Position numbers and translations under genes: made by a program. Positions 7,945 to 58,274 of a DNA stretch of 64,000 nucleotides are shown here, piece by piece (positions within the stretch are counted from its first letter, which is position 1; every line of letters starts with the position of its first letter). The notes under the pieces are model-generated. The model searched no databases. It was not told where the DNA came from and saw nothing but the letters and a program-made list of their open reading frames with translations. This stretch comes from Paracidobacterium acidisoli (GTDB lineage: Bacteria > Acidobacteriota > Terriglobia > Terriglobales > Acidobacteriaceae): the NCBI RefSeq assembly GCF_003428625.2, contig NZ_QVQT02000003.1, positions 248,001-312,000 on the forward strand, written 5' to 3'.

Positions 7945-7968
7945 GACGGAGCTGGTGATGCGGGCAGC

Positions 7969-8083
7969 AGTCAGGCACAAAACGGCCAGTGAAAAAGCGG
8001 TCAGCAAAGCTACTGTCTGCTGTCCGCCTTATTCCTGGCCGCTTCATCCCTGACAGTTTTTGTGCTTCACCGCTGACTTGCCG
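7969..8083. repeat. 15-nt periodic repeat array A (plus units then minus units)
   Basis: Plus-oriented 15-mers at 7969-7983, 7984-7998 (GGCCAGTGAAAAAGC) and 7999-8013. From 8014 to 8083 the same unit appears in the opposite orientation, including minus-strand GGCCAGGAATAAGGC and TGTCAGGGATGAAGC. The array fills the gap between the convergent rhomboid and beta-barrel genes. A 26-nt stretch (8029-8054) is identical to 16120-16145 in array D. Confidence 0.75.
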
Positions 8084-8767: not shown

Positions 8768-8791
8768 AGCTGATGGAATAGCTGATGGAGC

Positions 8792-8980
8792 GGCCAGCGA
8801 AAAGGCGGTCAGCTGAACTCCGGTCAGCAGAAAAGCGGTCGGCGGTTTTTGTATCTGGCCTGGGGAATCGTATTGCCCTGCCCTGGCCGTCACAAGCCCA
8901 TGCAGCCTGCACAACCCATGCACTCGCTGATCGGTTTTTGGCTGACCGCCCTGCCAGCTAACCGCTTCTTCGCTGACCGG
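8792..8980. repeat. 15-nt periodic repeat array B (inverted pair)
   Basis: Plus units in perfect 15-nt phase at 8792-8806 (GGCCAGCGAAAAGGC), 8807-8821, 8822-8836 (GGTCAGCAGAAAAGC) and 8837-8851. After about 75 nt of unrelated sequence, minus-oriented units follow at about 8930-8980 (minus-strand GGTCAGCGAAGAAGC at 8978-8964, then a GGTTAG unit and GGTCAGCCAAAAACC with one extra base between). It lies between the aspS stop and the beta-barrel start. Confidence 0.75.
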
Positions 8981-14553: not shown

Positions 14554-15660
14554 ATGTCCGATCCACAACCGACGCCCACTTCTCTCGACTATTCCCCCGA
14601 ACATCTGACGCAGCGATTCCAGACTCTCCAGGCTGAATTTGATCTCGGTCTCCGAGAGGCTTCTACTCCCGAGGAGCTAGAAGATCTCCGCCTCAAATGG
14701 GAGGGCCGCAAGCAGGGCCGTCTCACCCTGCTCAGCTCTCTCTGGCTGAAAGAGGCGCCAGCAGAGAAAAAGAAAGAGATCGGCCAGCGTTTTAACGCGC
14801 TGAAAGATCACATCGTTTCAGAGCTGCAACGCGCCGCGGGTTCGAGAGGTCAGAACGTTCTCGACGCCGAAGCCATCGACATCACCCAGCCCGGCACCCG
14901 CCGCCGCCTTGGTGCCGAGCACCCGCTCATCAGGACGTGGAACGAAATCGTCAAAATCTTCCAGGCCATGGGTTACTCCGTCGGCGTCGGCCCCGAGGTC
15001 GAAACCGACTACTACAACTTCGAGTCGCTCAACTTTCCGCCGGGGCACCCGGCACGCGATACGCAGGACACCCTCGTCATCACCGGGCAGGAGCGCAAGC
15101 CGCTCCGCGACCGCCTGCTCATGCGCACGCACACCTCGCCCGTCCAGATCCGCACCATGGAGCAGCAGCCGCCGCCCGTGCGCATCGTCATCCCCGGCAA
15201 GGTGCACCGCAACGACGCCGCCGACGCCACCCACTCGCCCATCTTCCATCAGGTTGAAGGCCTCTGCGTCGACACCAACATTACCTTCTCCGATCTGAAG
15301 GGCACGCTCGACCACTTCATGAAGGCGCTCTTCGGATCGAGCGTCAAAACGCGCTTCTTCCCGTCCTTCTTTCCCTTCACCGAGCCTTCCGCTGACGTGC
15401 AGATCAGCTGCCCCTTCTGCGGCGGCAAAGGCTGCCGCAAGTGCAAGTACTCCGGCTGGATCGAGCTGCTCGGCTGCGGCATGGTCGACCCCGCCGTCTT
15501 CGGATTCGTGCAGCAAAAGCAGCCCGCCTACGATCCGAAAAAGATCAGCGGATTCGCCTTCGGCATGGGCATCGACCGCGTCGCCATGATGAGCTACGGC
15601 ATCAGCGACATCAGCCTCATGTACTCCGGAGACCTGCGCTTTCTGGAGCAGTTTGCGTGA
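14554..15660 (+). CDS. pheS: Phenylalanyl-tRNA synthetase alpha subunit
   Basis: 368 residues. An N-terminal coiled-coil region (~15-95) binds tRNA. The class II core includes HPLIRTWNEIVKIFQAMGY, RDTQDTL, LLMRTHTSPVQIRTM, GKVHRNDAADATHSPIFHQ (motif 2), and SGFAFGMGIDRVAMMSYGI (motif 3). A four-Cys CPFCGGKGCRKC insertion (~285-300) looks zinc-binding. It forms the (alpha beta)2 enzyme with PheT, encoded 500 nt downstream. Between the two genes lies an S23-like gene flanked by inverted 15-mer arrays, so the usual tight pheST linkage is interrupted. Confidence 0.97.
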   Translation: MSDPQPTPTSLDYSPEHLTQRFQTLQAEFDLGLREASTPEELEDLRLKWEGRKQGRLTLLSSLWLKEAPAEKKKEIGQRFNALKDHIVSELQRAAGSRGQNVLDAEAIDITQPGTRRRLGAEHPLIRTWNEIVKIFQAMGYSVGVGPEVETDYYNFESLNFPPGHPARDTQDTLVITGQERKPLRDRLLMRTHTSPVQIRTMEQQPPPVRIVIPGKVHRNDAADATHSPIFHQVEGLCVDTNITFSDLKGTLDHFMKALFGSSVKTRFFPSFFPFTEPSADVQISCPFCGGKGCRKCKYSGWIELLGCGMVDPAVFGFVQQKQPAYDPKKISGFAFGMGIDRVAMMSYGISDISLMYSGDLRFLEQFA

Positions 15661-15667
15661 ACGAGTG

Positions 15668-15727
15668 GGGCAGCGGAAGAACGGTCAGGAGTAAGACGGC
15701 CAGTGAAAAACCGGCCAGCGAGTTCAT
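15668..15727 (+). repeat. 15-nt periodic repeat array C
   Basis: Four plus-oriented units in perfect phase: 15668-15682 (GGGCAGCGGAAGAAC), 15683-15697 (GGTCAGGAGTAAGAC), 15698-15712 (GGCCAGTGAAAAACC) and 15713-15727 (GGCCAGCGAGTTCAT). It starts 8 nt after the pheS stop and ends 3 nt before the S23-like ATG. Confidence 0.8.
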
Positions 15728-15730
15728 GGC

Positions 15731-16099
15731 ATGAGGGTGAAGCAGTTTCGTGACCTGCTGGTTTGGCAGAAGGGAATGGCGCTTGCGCGTGAAATCTATC
15801 GAGTGACGCAGTCTTTTCCCAAAGCAGAAGTATTTGGCCTGACAGCGCAGATGAGACGTGCTGCCGTCTCTATCCCGAGCAATATCGCGGAAGGCCAGGG
15901 AAGGCTCTCTGACAAAGTCTTCATTCTTTTTCTCGGCCACGCGCGAGGATCGCTTTATGAACTGGAGACACAGGCTGAACTTGCAGAAAGCCTCGGTTAT
16001 CTCGGGAAGCAGGAGCTTCAGCAGGTACTGTCCGAGTGCAGTGAACTGGGCCGTATGCTTCACGGCTTATTGAATTCGATGAGAGAGGAAAATGGCTGA
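15731..16099 (+). CDS. Four-helix bundle protein of the S23/IVS family
   Basis: 122 residues. Motifs VKQFRDLLVWQKGMALAREIY, FGLTAQMRRAAVSIPSNIAEG, FLGHARGSLYELETQ are hallmarks of the 23S-rRNA-intervening-sequence/S23 four-helix proteins, a family related to Avd of diversity-generating retroelements. Biochemical role is unproven; nucleic-acid binding has been proposed for relatives. There is no rRNA gene or reverse transcriptase here. The gene is inserted between pheS and pheT, and inverted 15-mer arrays (C plus, D minus) lie immediately on both sides. This suggests it arrived as a unit. Confidence 0.9.
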   Translation: MRVKQFRDLLVWQKGMALAREIYRVTQSFPKAEVFGLTAQMRRAAVSIPSNIAEGQGRLSDKVFILFLGHARGSLYELETQAELAESLGYLGKQELQQVLSECSELGRMLHGLLNSMREENG

Positions 16100-16101
16100 G
16101 G

Positions 16102-16153
16102 GAGGGTTTGCTGGCCGTTTTATTCCTGGCCGCTTCATCCCTGACTGCTGACC
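16102..16153 (-). repeat. 15-nt periodic repeat array D
   Basis: Minus-oriented units at 16116-16102 (GGCCAGCAAACCCTC), 16131-16117 (GGCCAGGAATAAAAC), 16146-16132 (AGTCAGGGATGAAGC) and a partial GGTCAGC at 16153-16147. It starts 2 nt after the S23-like stop and ends 14 nt before the pheT ATG. It mirrors array C. Confidence 0.8.
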
Positions 16154-16167
16154 GCCACACAATACGC

Positions 16168-18246
16168 ATGAAAATTCTCTCCAACTGGCTCCGCTCGTAC
16201 CTTCCTGAACTCGCCGTCTCCGACCGCCAGCTCGCCGATGACCTCACGCTGCGCGGCATCGCCGTTGAAGGCGTGTTTGATTTTGAAGCAGACGGCTCGC
16301 TCTTCGAGATGGACATCACCACCAACCGCGTCGATGCCATGAACCACTACGGCATCGCGCGCGAGGCGGCAACCATCTATGGCCTGCAGCTTAAGCCGCT
16401 GGAAACGGCGCTGCCCGCAGCAAAGCCGACCTCGCAGCCGTTCCCCGTCACCATCGAAGAGCAGAAGCTCTGCGGACGCTTCACCGCCCGCGTCCTGCGC
16501 GACGTAACCATCGCGCCCTCCACCGGCATCGTCGCCGACCGCTTCCGTCTCCTCGAGCAAAAGCTCATCTCGAACGCCGTCGACGCCACCAACTTCGTCA
16601 CCCTCGCCATCGGCCAGCCCACACATGCCTTCGACCTCGACAAGCTCGAAGGCGGCATCGTCGTCCGCCGCGCGCGCAAAGGCGAAAAGCTCAAGACCCT
16701 CGACGGTATCGAGCGCACACTTGATCCCGACGATCTCATCGTCGCCGACCACAAGAAGGCCCTCGGCATCGCGGGAGTGATTGGCGGGTGGGACACCATG
16801 ATCACGCCCGAGACGAAAAACATCCTCGTCGAAGCCGCATGGTTCGACCCCGCCACCGTGCGCCGCAGCTCCAAACGTCACCTCATCCACACCGACGCCT
16901 CGCACCGCTTCGAGCGTGGAGCCGACTTCAACGCCGCTTCTGTCGCCAACGCCCTCGTCAGCCGCATCATCCTTGAAGCAGGCGGTTACGCCGAAGGCGA
17001 TCTCGTCGATGTCCTCATCCCCGAAGCCGAGCAGCGCACCGCAAAACGCGCCAGCATCCATTTCGCCGTCAGCGAAGCGCGCCGCATCCTCGGACCGACC
17101 GAAGACAAAGAAGGTATTACCGCGGCAATTTCAGAAACTATCCTCACCGGCCTCGGCTGCACGCTCCACAAGACAGAAGAAGAACACTACAGCGTCACGC
17201 TGCCCAGCTGGCGTCTCGACCTCGAGCGCGAGATCGACCTCATCGAAGAGATCGCCCGCGTTTACGGCTATAACCGTTTTCAGAACACGCTGCCATCCTT
17301 TTCAGGTTCGGTTGTCGCCCTTCCCTGGGCCGAAAAAGAAGCCGCGCTGCGCGAGGCTCTCCTCGCACTCTGCTGGAACGAGGCCATCTCCTCTACTTTT
17401 TGTTCTGTAACCGACGCAGATACATTTTCCCGTGATCCGAAATCCGCCGTCGCCATCGGCAATCCGCTCAGCGAAGAAGCGGGCATGCTGCGCCCCTCGC
17501 TCGTGCCCGGCATGCTCGGCATGCTTTCGCTCAACATCAGCCGCGACGTCGAATCGGCCGCGCTCTTCGAGATGGGCACCGTCTTCACCGGCGCCGCGGA
17601 AAAGGTAGACGAGCGCCCCTCGCTCGCCATCGGCGCAACCGGCGCCGCGCTCGGCGCAGCAGAGACAGACTTCTTCGACATCAAGGGAACCGTCGAAACC
17701 CTGCTCGGAAAGTTCTCCTCGCGCTCGCTCTACTACGACCGCTTCCCATCCGCCACCGGACTCATGCCCGCATGGCTGCATCCCGGCCGCAGCGCCCGCG
17801 CCGTGCTCGACGGAGCCACCGTCGGCTACTTCGGCCAGCTTCACCCCGCCGAAGCCGAGCGCCGCAAGCTCAAGCAGACCGTCTTCCTCGGCGAGCTCTA
17901 TCTCGACCGCCTCTACAAACAGTCGCTGCGCCAGCCCGCCATGCGCGAGCTCTCCCGCTTCCAGCCCGTGCGCCGCGACTTCTCCTTAATTGTGCCGGAC
18001 ACGGTGACATATTCCGTCATCGCCGACGCCGTCGCCTCGCTCACCATCTCCGAGCTGCAAAGCTTCGCGCTCAAAGAAATCCTCCGCGACCCAAAAGGAA
18101 AGCTCGCACCCGTCGGCCATTACTCGCTGCTCCTCGGAACCGTCTTTCAGTCGCTCGAGCGCACCCTGCGCGAAGAGGAAGTGCAGAGCTGGTCGCAGCA
18201 GGTCGTCGCAGCCCTCGAAGCGCGGGGAGCAAGGCTGCGCAGCTGA
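16168..18246 (+). CDS. pheT: Phenylalanyl-tRNA synthetase beta subunit, short form without EMAP/OB domain
   Basis: 692 residues from ATG 16168 (MKILSNWLRSYLPEL). The usual PheT is ~790-800 residues, with a tRNA-binding EMAP/OB domain after the first ~40. Here GIAVEGVFDFEADGSL runs directly into FEMDITTNRVDAMNHYGIAREAA, the start of B3/B4-type sequence, so about 100 residues are absent. B3/B4 editing region (~110-300), B5 (~300-370), the catalytic-like core and the C-terminal ferredoxin-like anticodon domain (FQPVRRDFSLIVPD) remain. The gene is intact. No clear Shine-Dalgarno sequence is visible; array D lies directly upstream. Confidence 0.95.
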   Translation: MKILSNWLRSYLPELAVSDRQLADDLTLRGIAVEGVFDFEADGSLFEMDITTNRVDAMNHYGIAREAATIYGLQLKPLETALPAAKPTSQPFPVTIEEQKLCGRFTARVLRDVTIAPSTGIVADRFRLLEQKLISNAVDATNFVTLAIGQPTHAFDLDKLEGGIVVRRARKGEKLKTLDGIERTLDPDDLIVADHKKALGIAGVIGGWDTMITPETKNILVEAAWFDPATVRRSSKRHLIHTDASHRFERGADFNAASVANALVSRIILEAGGYAEGDLVDVLIPEAEQRTAKRASIHFAVSEARRILGPTEDKEGITAAISETILTGLGCTLHKTEEEHYSVTLPSWRLDLEREIDLIEEIARVYGYNRFQNTLPSFSGSVVALPWAEKEAALREALLALCWNEAISSTFCSVTDADTFSRDPKSAVAIGNPLSEEAGMLRPSLVPGMLGMLSLNISRDVESAALFEMGTVFTGAAEKVDERPSLAIGATGAALGAAETDFFDIKGTVETLLGKFSSRSLYYDRFPSATGLMPAWLHPGRSARAVLDGATVGYFGQLHPAEAERRKLKQTVFLGELYLDRLYKQSLRQPAMRELSRFQPVRRDFSLIVPDTVTYSVIADAVASLTISELQSFALKEILRDPKGKLAPVGHYSLLLGTVFQSLERTLREEEVQSWSQQVVAALEARGARLRS

Positions 18247-35446: not shown

Positions 35447-35464
35447 ACTCTTTGAGGGTAACAG

Positions 35465-35499
35465 GGACTCGCCGTCCAGGCACTCGCGCCTTCGGCGCC
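35465..35499 (-). repeat. 35-nt palindromic repeat, copy 1
   Basis: Minus-strand sequence starts GGCGCCGAAGGCGC, then GAGTGCCT and GGACGGCGAGTCC. It differs from copy 2 at only a few positions. It lies 19 nt upstream of the VOC-ribH start. Related fragments lie near 35605-35650, overlapping the end of the PIN toxin gene. Confidence 0.75.
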
Positions 35500-36298: not shown

Positions 36299-36651
36299 GG
36301 CAGAGTCATCCTGCTAAGTTATCTTAGTCAAGATGGATACTGAAGGTCAAGAAGCCATCTCAAAAAATGCCGATTGAGAGGAAAGCGTACTCAAATGAGG
36401 GGTTTATCACAGACTCTTATTATTGATATGAATGCACTCATATTTTATGAATCATTTGTGCTATAGTGGCGTCGAATAAGCTGCAGGTTGAGGTCTGCCA
36501 GAGCGCAGGGACTCGGTCCGTGCGCCTGGGGCAGGCAGTTAGCAGTCAGCCATAAAACGGTCGGCAGGTTGTCTCGCTGGCCGCCTTGCCGCTGACGGTT
36601 TCATCGCCGGCCGTTTCACCAGCTACTCGCATCATCAGCTACAGGAGAATC
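36299..36651. other. Divergent regulatory region between Phd/PIN module and clpB
   Basis: 353 nt. For the antitoxin (minus): TTGACC and TAAGAT about 18 nt apart, and the inverted repeat CTAAG-TTAT-CTTAG at 36314-36327. For clpB (plus): an AT-rich stretch at 36420-36466 with ATATGA (36425-36430) and TCATAT (36437-36442) arms, and TATAGT at 36461. No CIRCE-type element was seen. The right 100 nt is repeat array E. Confidence 0.5.
36544..36642. repeat. 15-nt periodic repeat array E (plus unit then minus units)
   Basis: Plus unit AGTCAGCCATAAAAC (36544-36558) and the start of another (GGTCGGCAGG). Then five minus-oriented 15-mers in perfect phase at 36568-36582 (GGCCAGCGAGACAAC), 36583-36597, 36598-36612 (GGCCGGCGATGAAAC), 36613-36627 and 36628-36642. 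It ends 9 nt before the clpB ATG, just ahead of its Shine-Dalgarno sequence. Confidence 0.75.
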
Positions 36652-47086: not shown

Positions 47087-48967
47087 ATGAGCCTCTTCCT
47101 GCCCTTCGCCGAGCTGTGCGACGCCCTCGCCGCGACCACGAAGAAGCTCGAAAAGCGCGCCCTCATCGCCCAGTACCTCAAATCGCTGCCTATCGCCGAC
47201 GCCTCTCGCGCCGTCCTCTGGCTCTCCGGCTCGCCCTTCGCCGAAACCGACCGCCGCGCCCTCAACGCCGGAGGCTCGCTCCTCAGCAAGGCCGTCGCCC
47301 AGCTCACCGGAGCCGACCGCAACTCCATGCACGCCGCCTACCGCCGCCACGGAGACTTCGGCGCAGCCTCAGCCGATCTGCTCGCCGCCCGCCTCGCGCA
47401 CGCCGCGACCCTCACTCTCGCCGCTCTTGAAACCGCCTTCGACCACCTCGCCGCCGCCCGCGGCTCCGCGCCAAAGCTGCGGCTGGTGACCGATCTCCTC
47501 GCGCAGGCCACGCCCGTCGAAGCCAAATACCTCATCAAGCTCATCCTCGGAGACATGCGCACCGGCGTGCAGCAGAGCCTCGTCGAAGAGGCCATCGCCG
47601 CAGCCTTTGATACGGAAGTCCCCGCCGTGCGTCGCGCCGGCATGCTCCTCGGCAACCTCGGCAAAGTGGTGGCGATGGCCGCGCAGGGCACGCTCGCCGA
47701 GGCCCGCATGAAGCTCTTCCATCCCCTCGGCTTCATGCTCGCCAGCCCCGTCGCCACCGTCGACGAAGCCATAGACCGTTTCGCCAGGGAAACTGAGGCG
47801 GAAGAAACCGGATTCCTTCGAGCATCCAGCGAAAGCGCCGCGACGGTTGCTAATGAGGTCTCTTCCGAGGCGCCGAAGGCGCGGTTGCCTGGACGGCCAG
47901 TCCAAATGGAGGACAAATACGACGGCATCCGCGCGCAGCTTCATTGCGGAGATTCCTCCGAGCCAGGCCGCGTCGGCCTCTTTTCCCGCAGCCGCGAAGA
48001 CCTGAGCGACGGTTTCCCCGACCTCATCGAAGCCTTCGCCGCTATCCCCGAGCCGGTCATCCTCGACGGCGAAATTCTCGCCTGGAATGCCGCCGCGCAG
48101 CGTGCCCTGCCGTTCTCCTCGCTCCAGCAGCGTATCGGCCGCAAGCGCGTCACCGAGCAGATGCGCGAGCAGATCCCCGTCGTCTTCATGGCCTTCGATC
48201 TGCTCTATGGCAACTCCGAATTACAGCTCGAACAGCCTCTGCGCCAACGGCGAACGCTGCTCGAAAATTTCCTCGCCACCCACGGCCCCGTCACCGCAGA
48301 AGCCGTACAGCGAGGACAGGCCAGTCTCTTCGCGCCGGAAACCGCGCAGCCATTTTTCCCGCGCCTGATGCTCGCGCCCGCCACGCCTCTCGCATCGGCA
48401 GAACAACTGGACCGCGCCTATTCTGAAGCCCGCAATCGCGGCAACGAAGGCGTCATGCTCAAATCGCTCGCCAGCACCTATCAGCCCGGACGCCGCGGAC
48501 TCGCCTGGCTCAAGCTCAAGCGCGAGCTGGCCACGCTCGACGTCGTCGTTACCGGAGCCGAGTTCGGCAACGGACGCCGCGCCGCCGTCCTTAGCGACTA
48601 CACCTTCGCCGTGCGCGATGGCGCGACAGCGAATGGCTCTGAATCAAATAATCTCAACCTGAAGAATGTCGGGAAGGCCTACTCCGGCCTCACCGACGCC
48701 GAAATCGCCGAACTCACCGACTTCTTCAAAGCCCACACCCTCGAAGACTTCGGAACCTTCCGTACGGTAGAGCCCCTGATCGTCCTCGAAGTCGCCTTCA
48801 ACAACGTCATGCGCTCCGACCGCCACGCGAGCGGCTTCGCGCTGCGCTTCCCGCGCATCGTCCGAATCCGAACCGACAAGCCTGTCGAGGAGATCGACAC
48901 GCTGCAGCGCGTCGAGGAAATTTATGCGGGGCAGCCTGAACTGGGCGCTTCTTCGCTGCCCAGCTAG
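47087..48967 (+). CDS. ATP-dependent DNA ligase
   Basis: 626 residues. N-terminal DNA-binding domain (~1-215, with DLLAQATPVEAKYLIKLILGDMRTGVQQSL). Adenylation domain with MEDKYDGIRAQ, where Lys277 is the AMP-acceptor. Later motifs: LFSRSREDLSDGFPDL, VILDGEILAW, FMAFDLLYG, EGVMLKSLASTYQPGRRGLAWLKLK. The OB domain ends near RFPRIVRIRTDKP. It seals nicks using ATP, accessory to an NAD-dependent LigA presumably elsewhere. Residues 261-273 (EAPKARLPGRPVQ), just before the catalytic motif, are encoded by a copy of the 35-nt palindromic repeat. The stop overlaps the convergent CDF gene. Confidence 0.94.
   Translation: MSLFLPFAELCDALAATTKKLEKRALIAQYLKSLPIADASRAVLWLSGSPFAETDRRALNAGGSLLSKAVAQLTGADRNSMHAAYRRHGDFGAASADLLAARLAHAATLTLAALETAFDHLAAARGSAPKLRLVTDLLAQATPVEAKYLIKLILGDMRTGVQQSLVEEAIAAAFDTEVPAVRRAGMLLGNLGKVVAMAAQGTLAEARMKLFHPLGFMLASPVATVDEAIDRFARETEAEETGFLRASSESAATVANEVSSEAPKARLPGRPVQMEDKYDGIRAQLHCGDSSEPGRVGLFSRSREDLSDGFPDLIEAFAAIPEPVILDGEILAWNAAAQRALPFSSLQQRIGRKRVTEQMREQIPVVFMAFDLLYGNSELQLEQPLRQRRTLLENFLATHGPVTAEAVQRGQASLFAPETAQPFFPRLMLAPATPLASAEQLDRAYSEARNRGNEGVMLKSLASTYQPGRRGLAWLKLKRELATLDVVVTGAEFGNGRRAAVLSDYTFAVRDGATANGSESNNLNLKNVGKAYSGLTDAEIAELTDFFKAHTLEDFGTFRTVEPLIVLEVAFNNVMRSDRHASGFALRFPRIVRIRTDKPVEEIDTLQRVEEIYAGQPELGASSLPS
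47869..47903 (+). repeat. 35-nt palindromic repeat, copy 2, inside the ligase gene
   Basis: Starts GGCGCCGAAGGCGC, then GGTTGCCT, then GGACGGCCAGTCC. It is translated in frame as EAPKARLPGRPVQ (ligase residues 261-273). The reading frame stays intact. Confidence 0.8.
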
Positions 48968-51353: not shown

Positions 51354-51482
51354 TTCGGTCTGGTCCTGATCCCCTGTCCGGAAATCCGGACGGGGGCAAC
51401 CATCCGGTCCGGAAGGATAATTCCGGGAAGCAGGGAACAGAGAGCGGAAAAATAAGGCCCGCGGAGGCCGGGTCTTTGTCTT

Positions 51483-51517
51483 TGCGCCGAAGGCGCGTCC
51501 GCCTGGACGGCCAGTCC
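51483..51517 (+). repeat. 35-nt palindromic repeat, copy 3, upstream of hslV
   Basis: TGCGCCGAAGGCGC, then GTCCGCCT, then GGACGGCCAGTCC. It ends 7 nt before a TATACT hexamer (51525-51530) that could be the hslV -10, 10 nt before the ATG. The repeat would then occupy the -35 region. Confidence 0.75.
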
Positions 51518-51540
51518 CCTGCGCTATACTCCAAAGAGAC

Positions 51541-55188: not shown

Positions 55189-56451
55189 ATGGCACACGAA
55201 TCGCATTCTTCTCCTGCACATCGTCATAAGGGTCACGGCGGAAAAGGCAAGCCGGGAGCCCCGCAGGCCAGCGGTGATCCGGTCTTCGCGCAGCCCGCGC
55301 CTTCTCCGGACCCGACCTCGTTTCGGAACCCGGTCACCGACCAGAGCGATAAGGACACGCCCGGCGTGCAGGTGGTGCCGCCGGCGCGCGGCGGAGCCGT
55401 CGAGCCGGTTCTGACGCTGGCTCAGGTATTCGGCAGCCAGGGAGAGACGATCACGCAGACCATCCAGAGCTCGGGCCAGATCGTCTTTCACAGCGTGGGC
55501 GATACGGGCAGCGTGGAGGGTCCGTCGACGCAGTCGCTGGTCGCCGACAAGATGGTGACCGACTTCAGCGAAACCAGCGCCGCGGATGTGCCGTCATTCT
55601 TCTTCCATCTGGGCGACGTGGTCTACTACTTCGGCGAAGCGACGTATTACTACGATCAGTTCTTCGAGCCGTACCGCTCGTATCCGGCGCCGATTATCGC
55701 CATCCCCGGCAACCACGACGGCATCGTTTACCCGAGCGATTCGGCTCCGACGCTCGATGCCTTTTTGCGCAACTTCTGTGCCGCCTCTGCGGCCCAGTCA
55801 CCGGACGCGGGTGGTCTGCTGCGGACGACGATGATCGCTCCCGGCGTGTACTTCACGCTGGAGGCGCCGTTTGTCCGGATTCTGGGGGTTTACAGCAATG
55901 TGCTCGAAGACCCCGGAGTGATCTCGGCGCAGGGCACGACTTATCCCACGCTGGACAGCCGCCAGGTGGATTTTCTTACCGCGGCGCTGAAGCGGGTGAC
56001 GACCGACGACTTCACCGGGGCGGTGATCATCGCTGTGCATCATCCGCCGTTCTCCGGCGGATCGGTCCATGGCGGAAGCCCGCTGATGCTGGCCGATATC
56101 GACAGCGCCTGCCAGGCGGCGGGAGTGTGGCCGCACGCGGTCTTCTCCGGGCACGCTCATAACTACCAGCGCTTTACCCGCATCGTGAACAGCTATCAGA
56201 CTCCGTATATTGTCGCGGGCTGCGGGGGGCATTCGCCGCTGAGCAAAATGAGCGGGACCTATCGTACGCCGTACAAGGTCGACGACACGCTCACCCTCGA
56301 GAGCTACGACGACACCGACTACGGCTATCTGCGGGTTGTGGTGAACGCGCAGACGATGACCGTCGAGTTTCATCCCCAGTCGGATGGCTCGACCACCAAG
56401 ACGCCCGATGACACGGTGACGATCGATCTGGCGACGCGGACGATCAGCTGA
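55189..56451 (+). CDS. Metallophosphoesterase (calcineurin-like)
   Basis: 420 residues, GGAGG 6 nt upstream. His/Pro/Gly-rich N-terminus without a classical signal peptide. The five phosphoesterase motifs are present in order: FHSVGDTG, FHLGDVVYYFG, AIPGNHDG, AVHHPPFSGG, FSGHAHNYQRF. These bind two metals and hydrolyse a phosphate ester. The C-terminal strand region (TMTVEFHPQSDGSTTKTPDDTVTIDLATRTIS) is needed for comparison with a decayed copy at ~58.2 kb. Substrate unknown; resembles acid-phosphatase-like families. Confidence 0.92.
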   Translation: MAHESHSSPAHRHKGHGGKGKPGAPQASGDPVFAQPAPSPDPTSFRNPVTDQSDKDTPGVQVVPPARGGAVEPVLTLAQVFGSQGETITQTIQSSGQIVFHSVGDTGSVEGPSTQSLVADKMVTDFSETSAADVPSFFFHLGDVVYYFGEATYYYDQFFEPYRSYPAPIIAIPGNHDGIVYPSDSAPTLDAFLRNFCAASAAQSPDAGGLLRTTMIAPGVYFTLEAPFVRILGVYSNVLEDPGVISAQGTTYPTLDSRQVDFLTAALKRVTTDDFTGAVIIAVHHPPFSGGSVHGGSPLMLADIDSACQAAGVWPHAVFSGHAHNYQRFTRIVNSYQTPYIVAGCGGHSPLSKMSGTYRTPYKVDDTLTLESYDDTDYGYLRVVVNAQTMTVEFHPQSDGSTTKTPDDTVTIDLATRTIS

Positions 56452-56581
56452 GCCTGATTTCAGGTAACTGCTTCGCAAAGAAGATTGTTTCCTGTAAACA
56501 ATCTCCGGTGCATGCGCCGAGATAATGATTTGTGTCAGATTTTTTTTGTTTATATGTATTCAGGAATGAAATCTCTGAAAA

Positions 56582-58165: not shown

Positions 58166-58241
58166 AGTTGAGACGTGCTCACGCTCAAGAGCTGCGACGA
58201 CAGGGTAACGGTTAGTCCGGCGACGCGGACGATTGGCTGAG
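58166..58241 (+). pseudogene. Decayed 3' remnant of a metallophosphoesterase paralogue
   Basis: AAAGTTGAGACGTGCTCACG... aligns with the phosphoesterase coding region around KVDDTLTLESYDD (~56275-56310). Then GACGACAGGGTAACG... aligns with its last 15 codons: DDRVTVSPATRTIG-stop here versus DDTVTIDLATRTIS-stop there, and GAGCC follows both stops. The intervening ~100 nt is absent, consistent with deletion between GACGAC/GATGAC direct repeats. Confidence 0.75.
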
Positions 58242-58274
58242 CCAGGCCTGATCGGCTGAAAACCGGGCAAAGGA

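Follow-up and report, generated by a model that had tools for sequence, protein, structure and literature searches.

A gene of the S23 family between inverted short-repeat arrays at the pheS-pheT junction of Paracidobacterium acidisoli: probable copy of a widespread mobile element

The pheS-S23-pheT locus and its genome

The stretch of DNA analysed here, referred to throughout as the window, is 64,000 nucleotides long and comes from the genome of Paracidobacterium acidisoli (5.0 Mb in 15 contigs, estimated to be 97% complete), which is G000 in the comparisons below. In it, pheS and pheT flank a unit made of one small gene and two arrays of short repeats. The features of the locus are as follows:

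14554-15660, plus strand: pheS, the upstream host gene (Pfam tRNA-synt_2d)
15655-15660, plus strand: GCGTGA at the stop of pheS, first (left) copy of a possible target duplication of 5-6 bp (from the sequence)
15668-15727, plus strand: left arm, or array C, made of GGYCAG repeats with a 15-nt period (7+8)
15731-16099, plus strand: four-helix-bundle gene of the S23 (23S rRNA IVP) family, 122 aa (PF05635, TIGR02436)
16101-16153, minus strand: right arm, or array D, which repeats the left arm in inverted form (predicted fold with 46 pairs between the arms)
16166-16171, plus strand: GCATGA at the start of pheT, second (right) copy of the possible target duplication
16168-18246, plus strand: pheT, the downstream host gene (Pfam B3_4, tRNA_synthFbeta, B5, FDX-ACB)

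The product of the central gene is recognised by both profiles of its family, PF05635 (E=6.2e-40, 136.1 bits against a cut-off of 33.8) and TIGR02436 (E=1.1e-38, 131.8 bits against a cut-off of 24). A preliminary description of this DNA had placed array C on the plus strand in the gap between pheS and S23 and array D on the minus strand in the gap between S23 and pheT, and this layout is confirmed from the sequence. Array C aligns to the reverse complement of array D with a score of 34, a value reached by none of 1000 dinucleotide shuffles and by none of 3964 same-spacing pairs drawn from the rest of the window; in direct orientation the score is 11. The arms are terminal inverted repeats capable of forming a stem: 46 pairs join the two arrays in the predicted RNA fold, and the arms alone fold at -62.4 kcal/mol. 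The arrays had been described as 15-mers. That unit is indeed present here, but it is the local, decayed form of the heptamer (sometimes 8-mer) array carried by most relatives. The copy between pheS and pheT in this genome is old and its repeats are degenerate. The flanking hexamers GCGTGA and GCATGA are compatible with a target duplication of 5-6 bp, being too diverged to prove one.

Just upstream of pheS lies a gene for a HicB-like antitoxin (PF15919, 14144-14541), preceded by a small ORF that looks HicA-like by eye. Further upstream, a PIN-domain gene (PF13470, 12806-13494, minus strand) is accompanied by a small upstream ORF with no Pfam match, the two likely forming a toxin-antitoxin pair.

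The genome contains three PF05635 genes by profile search, one of which is interrupted by a stop. Each of the three lies between inverted short arrays, and the array sequence differs from one gene to the next. The GGYCAG pattern has 61 exact, clustered occurrences in the genome; the listed clusters with copies on both strands have plus copies first and minus copies after, in a hairpin-like order, and none of the ten examined held a convincing S23 match. Arrays that stand without the gene are also found elsewhere in the window:

7960-8080, no strand assigned: cargo-less relative, with left and right arms joined and no gene between them
8778-8850, plus strand: one-sided array of the GGYCAG-type repeat
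36525-36625, no strand assigned: possible second cargo-less inverted array, decayed and weak

The first of these has an exact 26-nt stretch in common with array D (TTATTCCTGGCCGCTTCATCCCTGAC), and its alignment scores are 42 with array C and 60 with array D. The last folds as a hairpin, although the score between its two arms is only 17.

Repeats of other kinds were observed as well. A second dispersed family of about 35 nt, with the palindrome GGCGCCGAAGGCGC and CCTGGACGGCCAGTCC, occurs at 35464-35499, 47857-47903 and 51471-51518. A 58-nt direct repeat is present at 56397-56454 and 58186-58243; its copies are 76% identical, lie 1.8 kb apart and both end in TGAGCC. At locus L307, near-duplicate stretches (AACAACGACTGCAGATCCCTCCGCT...GGGATGACAATTCATTC) beside GGYCAG arrays represent another dispersed repeat of this genome, and at locus L309 a cargo-less array pair surrounds a terminator-like hairpin (GGCTGCGGT...ACCGCAGCC).

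Filled and empty sites in relatives and on plasmids

S23 and its arrays are present between pheS and pheT in G000, G008, G019, G031, G071 and Granulicella mallensis. In the empty state, represented by G033, G012, G020 and G010, the two genes overlap as ATGA, GTGA or TTGA, and the junction carries a single GCATGA or GCGTGA. The preliminary description had named an empty site in close relatives as a sign of insertion, and such a site is found in the closest sampled relative, G033, while plasmids provide a clean insertion with a 5-bp duplication. G000 is the sister of the empty G033 in a PheT tree (support 100/97), in which filled and empty taxa interleave, implying at least three changes. The pheST copies in the S23 tree fall in one clade of nine, which also holds three proteins not grouped as pheST. 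Given the interleaving in the first tree and the single clade in the second, either one S23 lineage has inserted at pheS-pheT more than once, or a single insertion was followed by several precise losses.

The single clade and the strong RNA hairpin formed by the arms might also be taken as the marks of an ancestral operon gene, with S23 having always stood between pheS and pheT and been lost in some genera, and with the arrays serving as regulatory hairpins in termination or translation coupling. This history is highly improbable. Overlapping pheS and pheT genes occur in both halves of the PheT tree, interleaved with filled sites; S23 with arrays occupies many unrelated junctions, and its orientation in G090 is reversed; plasmids provide an exact empty site together with a target duplication; and Rfam gives no family match at 15500-16300 or at 14 other S23 loci.

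Insertion as a mobile element, the reading preferred here, is consistent with a set of Nostocales plasmids that are 97-98% identical, the site being filled in Trichormus variabilis and Scytonema and empty in Aulosira, Nostoc carneum and Microchaete. Removal of 428 nt from the filled site, L177, yields a gap-free match of 1300 nt to three empty plasmids at 97.4-97.9% identity, and the insert is flanked on each side by GTAAT, a clean 5-bp target duplication and the sole unambiguous one. At a second plasmid junction TTCTA lies on both sides of an S23 element, with a one-base indel adjacent, and at the next gene along that operon another, different S23 element interrupts an overlapping TAATG, leaving TAATG and TTATG; both sites appear compatible with a 5-bp duplication. 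The diverged pairs SETA, SET2, SET3, L203/L221 and L336/L373 have no clean ends and were excluded from the count of target duplications. The four best-read target sites (GTAAT, TTCTA, TAATG and the pheST GC[GA]TGA) all overlap the upstream stop codon, an overlap that selection alone could explain, given such short spacers.

S23 elements are also observed in CRISPR operons of cyanobacterial plasmids, between cas6 and cas4 at L178 and between cas10 and cmr3 at L336, and plasmids related to both are known without them. S23 genes beside cas genes or genes of diversity-generating retroelements (DGRs) may be passengers rather than functional parts. The 23S rRNA IVP domain named in a figure legend of a survey of CRISPR-linked genes (PMC10910872) may be such a passenger S23 element.

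Five orthologous junctions were compared in the congeners G025 and G090. One is filled in both genomes; a second is filled in G025, with the empty state in G090. At another, S23 is present in G025 and just a small array is left in G090, and at yet another the two genomes have S23 elements in opposite orientation with different heptamers. The gap-pgk junction carries an S23 element in G025 and, in G090, L223, a distant four-helix-bundle gene (TIGR02436) with GAATCAG-type arrays on both sides.

Several genera have S23 elements at common junctions, identified by eye as dprA-topA, downstream of ychF and upstream of prfA (loci L035, L042, L050, L051 and L060; L036, L044, L045 and L056; L053, L116 and L119), and S23 clades track these junctions. 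Because the clades follow insertion sites in Acidobacteria, much of the present distribution is one of vertical descent and loss, not of frequent jumping.

Recurrence of the architecture across taxa

PF05635 genes occur in 72 of 100 genomes of the same family, with a maximum of 11 per genome. The surroundings of 32 of the family's S23 loci were examined together with those of 80 named loci from other taxa, which include Planctomycetota, Bacteroidota, Bacillota, Chloroflexota, Pseudomonadota, Cyanobacteriota and one archaeon. Usable flanks were available at 108 loci, for which the left flank of one locus paired with the right flank of another served as the control. The inverted arm match exceeded the 99th percentile of these mismatched pairs at 75 of the 108, compared with 9 of 108 in direct orientation; some S23 loci have no clear arm on one side. 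Self-matching of the flanks peaks at lags of 7 (16.4), 14 (13.7) and 21 (10.9), with values of about 4-6 at the remaining lags. Both arms have a period of 7 at 45 loci, and their units are equal within one mismatch at 36 of these, whereas between loci the heptamers agree to that extent in 4.9% of pairs. The repeat is usually a heptamer, with a sequence private to the element or lineage: 83 distinct heptamers were found among 123 arrays (CAG in 41%, TAG in 34%), with no terminal sequence conserved among copies of the kind that characterises MITEs and REP/RAYT elements. S23 is further found on 28 plasmid records and 35 viral contigs; plasmids have the same inverted-array architecture, and it is visible on most of the viral contigs when inspected.

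These results bear on several claims of the preliminary description. Its expectation that other S23 genes would be flanked by the same arrays holds in so far as S23 genes are flanked across phyla, but each element has its own heptamer, common to its two arms. Relatives do not all carry S23 without arrays, and arrays elsewhere do flank S23 genes, the two points on which its reading had been staked. Its proposal of a mobile element or repeat-cargo cassette is supported by the recurrence across phyla and by the empty and filled sites. From such sequence comparisons, we put the probability at roughly 0.78 that the unit represents a widespread kind of mobile DNA element in which two inverted short-repeat arrays surround one S23-family gene.

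Many arrays stand without S23, and heptamer repeats are known from Xanthomonas and Nostoc, the convergent arrays of Xanthomonas included, without mention of S23 (PMC4692102). Both observations would fit passive arrays, that is, REP/BIME-like intergenic repeats spread by another enzyme, with S23 caught in some of them as a passenger. Such an origin is quite unlikely. Most inspected S23 genes have arrays, with their own heptamer on both arms. Period-7 arrays are denser in genomes with more S23 copies (Spearman 0.69, p=0.018, in a small and phylogenetically correlated sample of 11 family genomes), ranging from 0-1 per 100 kb in genomes without S23 to 11.5 per 100 kb in one with 11 S23 genes; the detector, set to lags of 7 and 8, misses the decayed 15-nt arrays of G000, so that this genome is under-counted in the correlation. 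The S23 protein is, judging by dN/dS values of 0.10-0.15 between elements at different places, under purifying selection. Lastly, Y1 (RAYT-type) transposase genes, present in 89 of the 100 family genomes, were not found in G000 or in the S23-bearing G019, G043 and G066, so a Y1/RAYT transposase is out as a universal requirement.

The S23 protein, its possible mobility and known systems

The S23 family profile matches PDB entry 2gsc (E=1.2e-40). The only solved structures found among S23 relatives are 2gsc (XCC0516) and 2rld, and in XCC0516 five four-helix bundles are reported to form a ring (Lin et al. 2006, cited in PMC4990558). The relationship of S23 to Avd, stated in the preliminary description, is borne out by matches to the profiles bAvd (E=8.6e-9), DivGenRetAVD (E=8.9e-8) and PHROG Avd (E=1e-8), and a search for a role in defence systems gave no PADLOC match. 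Eight residues (W12, E33, Q40, S47, N51, E54, G55 and E77) are invariant in 112 proteins, S47, N51, E54 and G55 having been part of the search pattern for 80 of these. E33, Q40, S47 and E54 are spaced by 7 and would lie on one face if a single helix spans them. S23 is the sole gene of the element and has no match to a catalytic family; no known transposase, recombinase or reverse transcriptase is found inside. The earlier label of a non-autonomous element therefore fits as regards the absence of a known transposase gene, and needs qualifying in that S23 itself might be the mobilising protein.

A bolder reading, possible though doubtful, makes S23 the catalytic core of a new class of DNA mobile element, one that would recognise its ends by their hairpin or array architecture and not by a set sequence. 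If so, W12, E33, Q40, S47, N51, E54 and E77 would form the working site, and the intervening sequences (IVSs) of 23S rRNA, together with at least part of the heptamer repeats known from cyanobacteria, Xanthomonas and Beggiatoaceae, would all derive from this one class. Because architecture would be recognised rather than end sequence, each element lineage could have heptamer ends of its own. Against this stand L223, which also lies between arrays and in an alignment by eye lacks E33 and E54, and the fact that S47, N51, E54 and G55 are partly search-selected.

Both neighbouring genes point in the direction of S23 at 56 of 82 loci with callable neighbours and both are reversed at 6 of 82, a pattern that would follow from dependence of S23 on host transcription or from selection against the other orientations. 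This strong sense bias in operons would also suit an RNA-level element, whose transcript would fold via the arms, be excised by RNase III as in the 23S IVS and spread by reverse transcription. The strong predicted fold, the excision of the IVS by RNase III in Coxiella (PMC4990558) and the homology of S23 to Avd, an accessory protein of DGRs, favour the same view. Spread at the RNA level is nevertheless unlikely. Profile search found no RVT_1 in G000 or in the S23-rich G025, G007 and G074 (11, 9 and 8 S23 genes, respectively), which speaks against a reverse transcriptase as resident mobiliser and leaves a defining trait of DGRs absent from these genomes. Mismatches between the arms of 126 elements are symmetric (209 of G.U type and 209 of A.C type on the sense strand), a null wobble test that gives no sign of selection for RNA pairing in the stem; without such a bias, the arms appear to be matched by a process at the DNA level or to have been made together. 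In addition, the one clean site carries a short duplication typical of DNA transposition.

For a mobile DNA element, the reading preferred here, a route of movement can be proposed. S23 would bind the repeats or the hairpin of its own element, and bound S23 would bring the two ends of the element together. Cutting and joining with a stagger of about 5 bp, by S23 itself or by a protein supplied in trans, would then insert the element at gene junctions, where sense orientation in operons would probably allow S23 to be transcribed from the host operon. The arms would be kept alike at the DNA level, for example by gene conversion or hairpin slippage. The IVS would be an element of this kind within a 23S rRNA gene, where trimming of the RNA hairpin by RNase III makes the insertion tolerable. 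Confidence in any particular cutting mechanism is low.

A common and unexplained protein family, annotated as 'four helix bundle protein', S23 or 23S IVP and familiar chiefly from insertions in the ribosomal RNA of bacteria, would thereby gain a role as the gene of a mobile element. Ends that match within a copy and are free to differ between copies are unusual for a transposon, and imply that structure or the pattern of repeats is recognised, not one fixed sequence.

Several known systems share parts of this architecture. Like MITEs and REP/RAYT elements, the S23 units are small and intergenic, with inverted arms and cargo-less derivatives; unlike them, they have arms whose sequence is not fixed from copy to copy, and the search for a Y1 transposase in G000 was negative. 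Avd of DGRs is a distant S23 homologue and a four-helix bundle, but the unit contains no reverse transcriptase, nor does G000 have a detectable RVT_1. The P6b stem of the Nostoc trnL intron carries complementary seven-nucleotide repeats on both sides, in two interchangeable classes (PMC4476775); unlike the S23 units, this stem belongs to a group I intron, and no S23 gene is reported there. Period 7 and an intergenic position are shared with the heptanucleotide repeats GGGAATC, GGGGA(C/T)T and TAACTGA of cyanobacteria, Xanthomonas and Beggiatoaceae, and convergent inverted pairs, as in S23 units, have been noted in Xanthomonas (PMC4692102). For the TAACTGA repeats of Beggiatoaceae a repeat-binding protein has been suggested as the possible mobile part, with S23 unmentioned (PMC4679880), and S23 is a candidate for that protein. 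The S23 element is a possible origin for heptamer repeats that were reported separately in these three groups; in the open-licence literature, no publication was found that connects S23 with heptamer arrays outside 23S rRNA.

The IVSs of 23S rRNA consist of an S23 ORF and an inverted-repeat stem; they are excised by RNase III, have been called selfish, and have been proposed to be mobile (PMC4990558). That of Coxiella is 428 nt long and has tandem heptamers (GACAGAT) before its S23 ORF, along with the inverted-repeat stem (PMC4990558). Like the IVSs of Leptospira, Coxiella and others, the units described here hold one S23-family ORF between inverted repeats over about 430 nt, and the insert at L177 likewise measures 428 nt, including one target copy. 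Unlike IVSs, they are located between protein genes, on plasmids and on viral contigs rather than in rRNA, both of their arms are heptamer arrays that vary by element, and an empty site with a target duplication is available. The element of the window lies between pheS and pheT, outside the 23S rRNA gene whose interior defines an IVS, and is therefore not an IVS. On the basis of one published description and of homology, the 23S rRNA IVS appears to be the special, ribosomal case of a general S23-array element, and the origin of these intervening sequences becomes testable.
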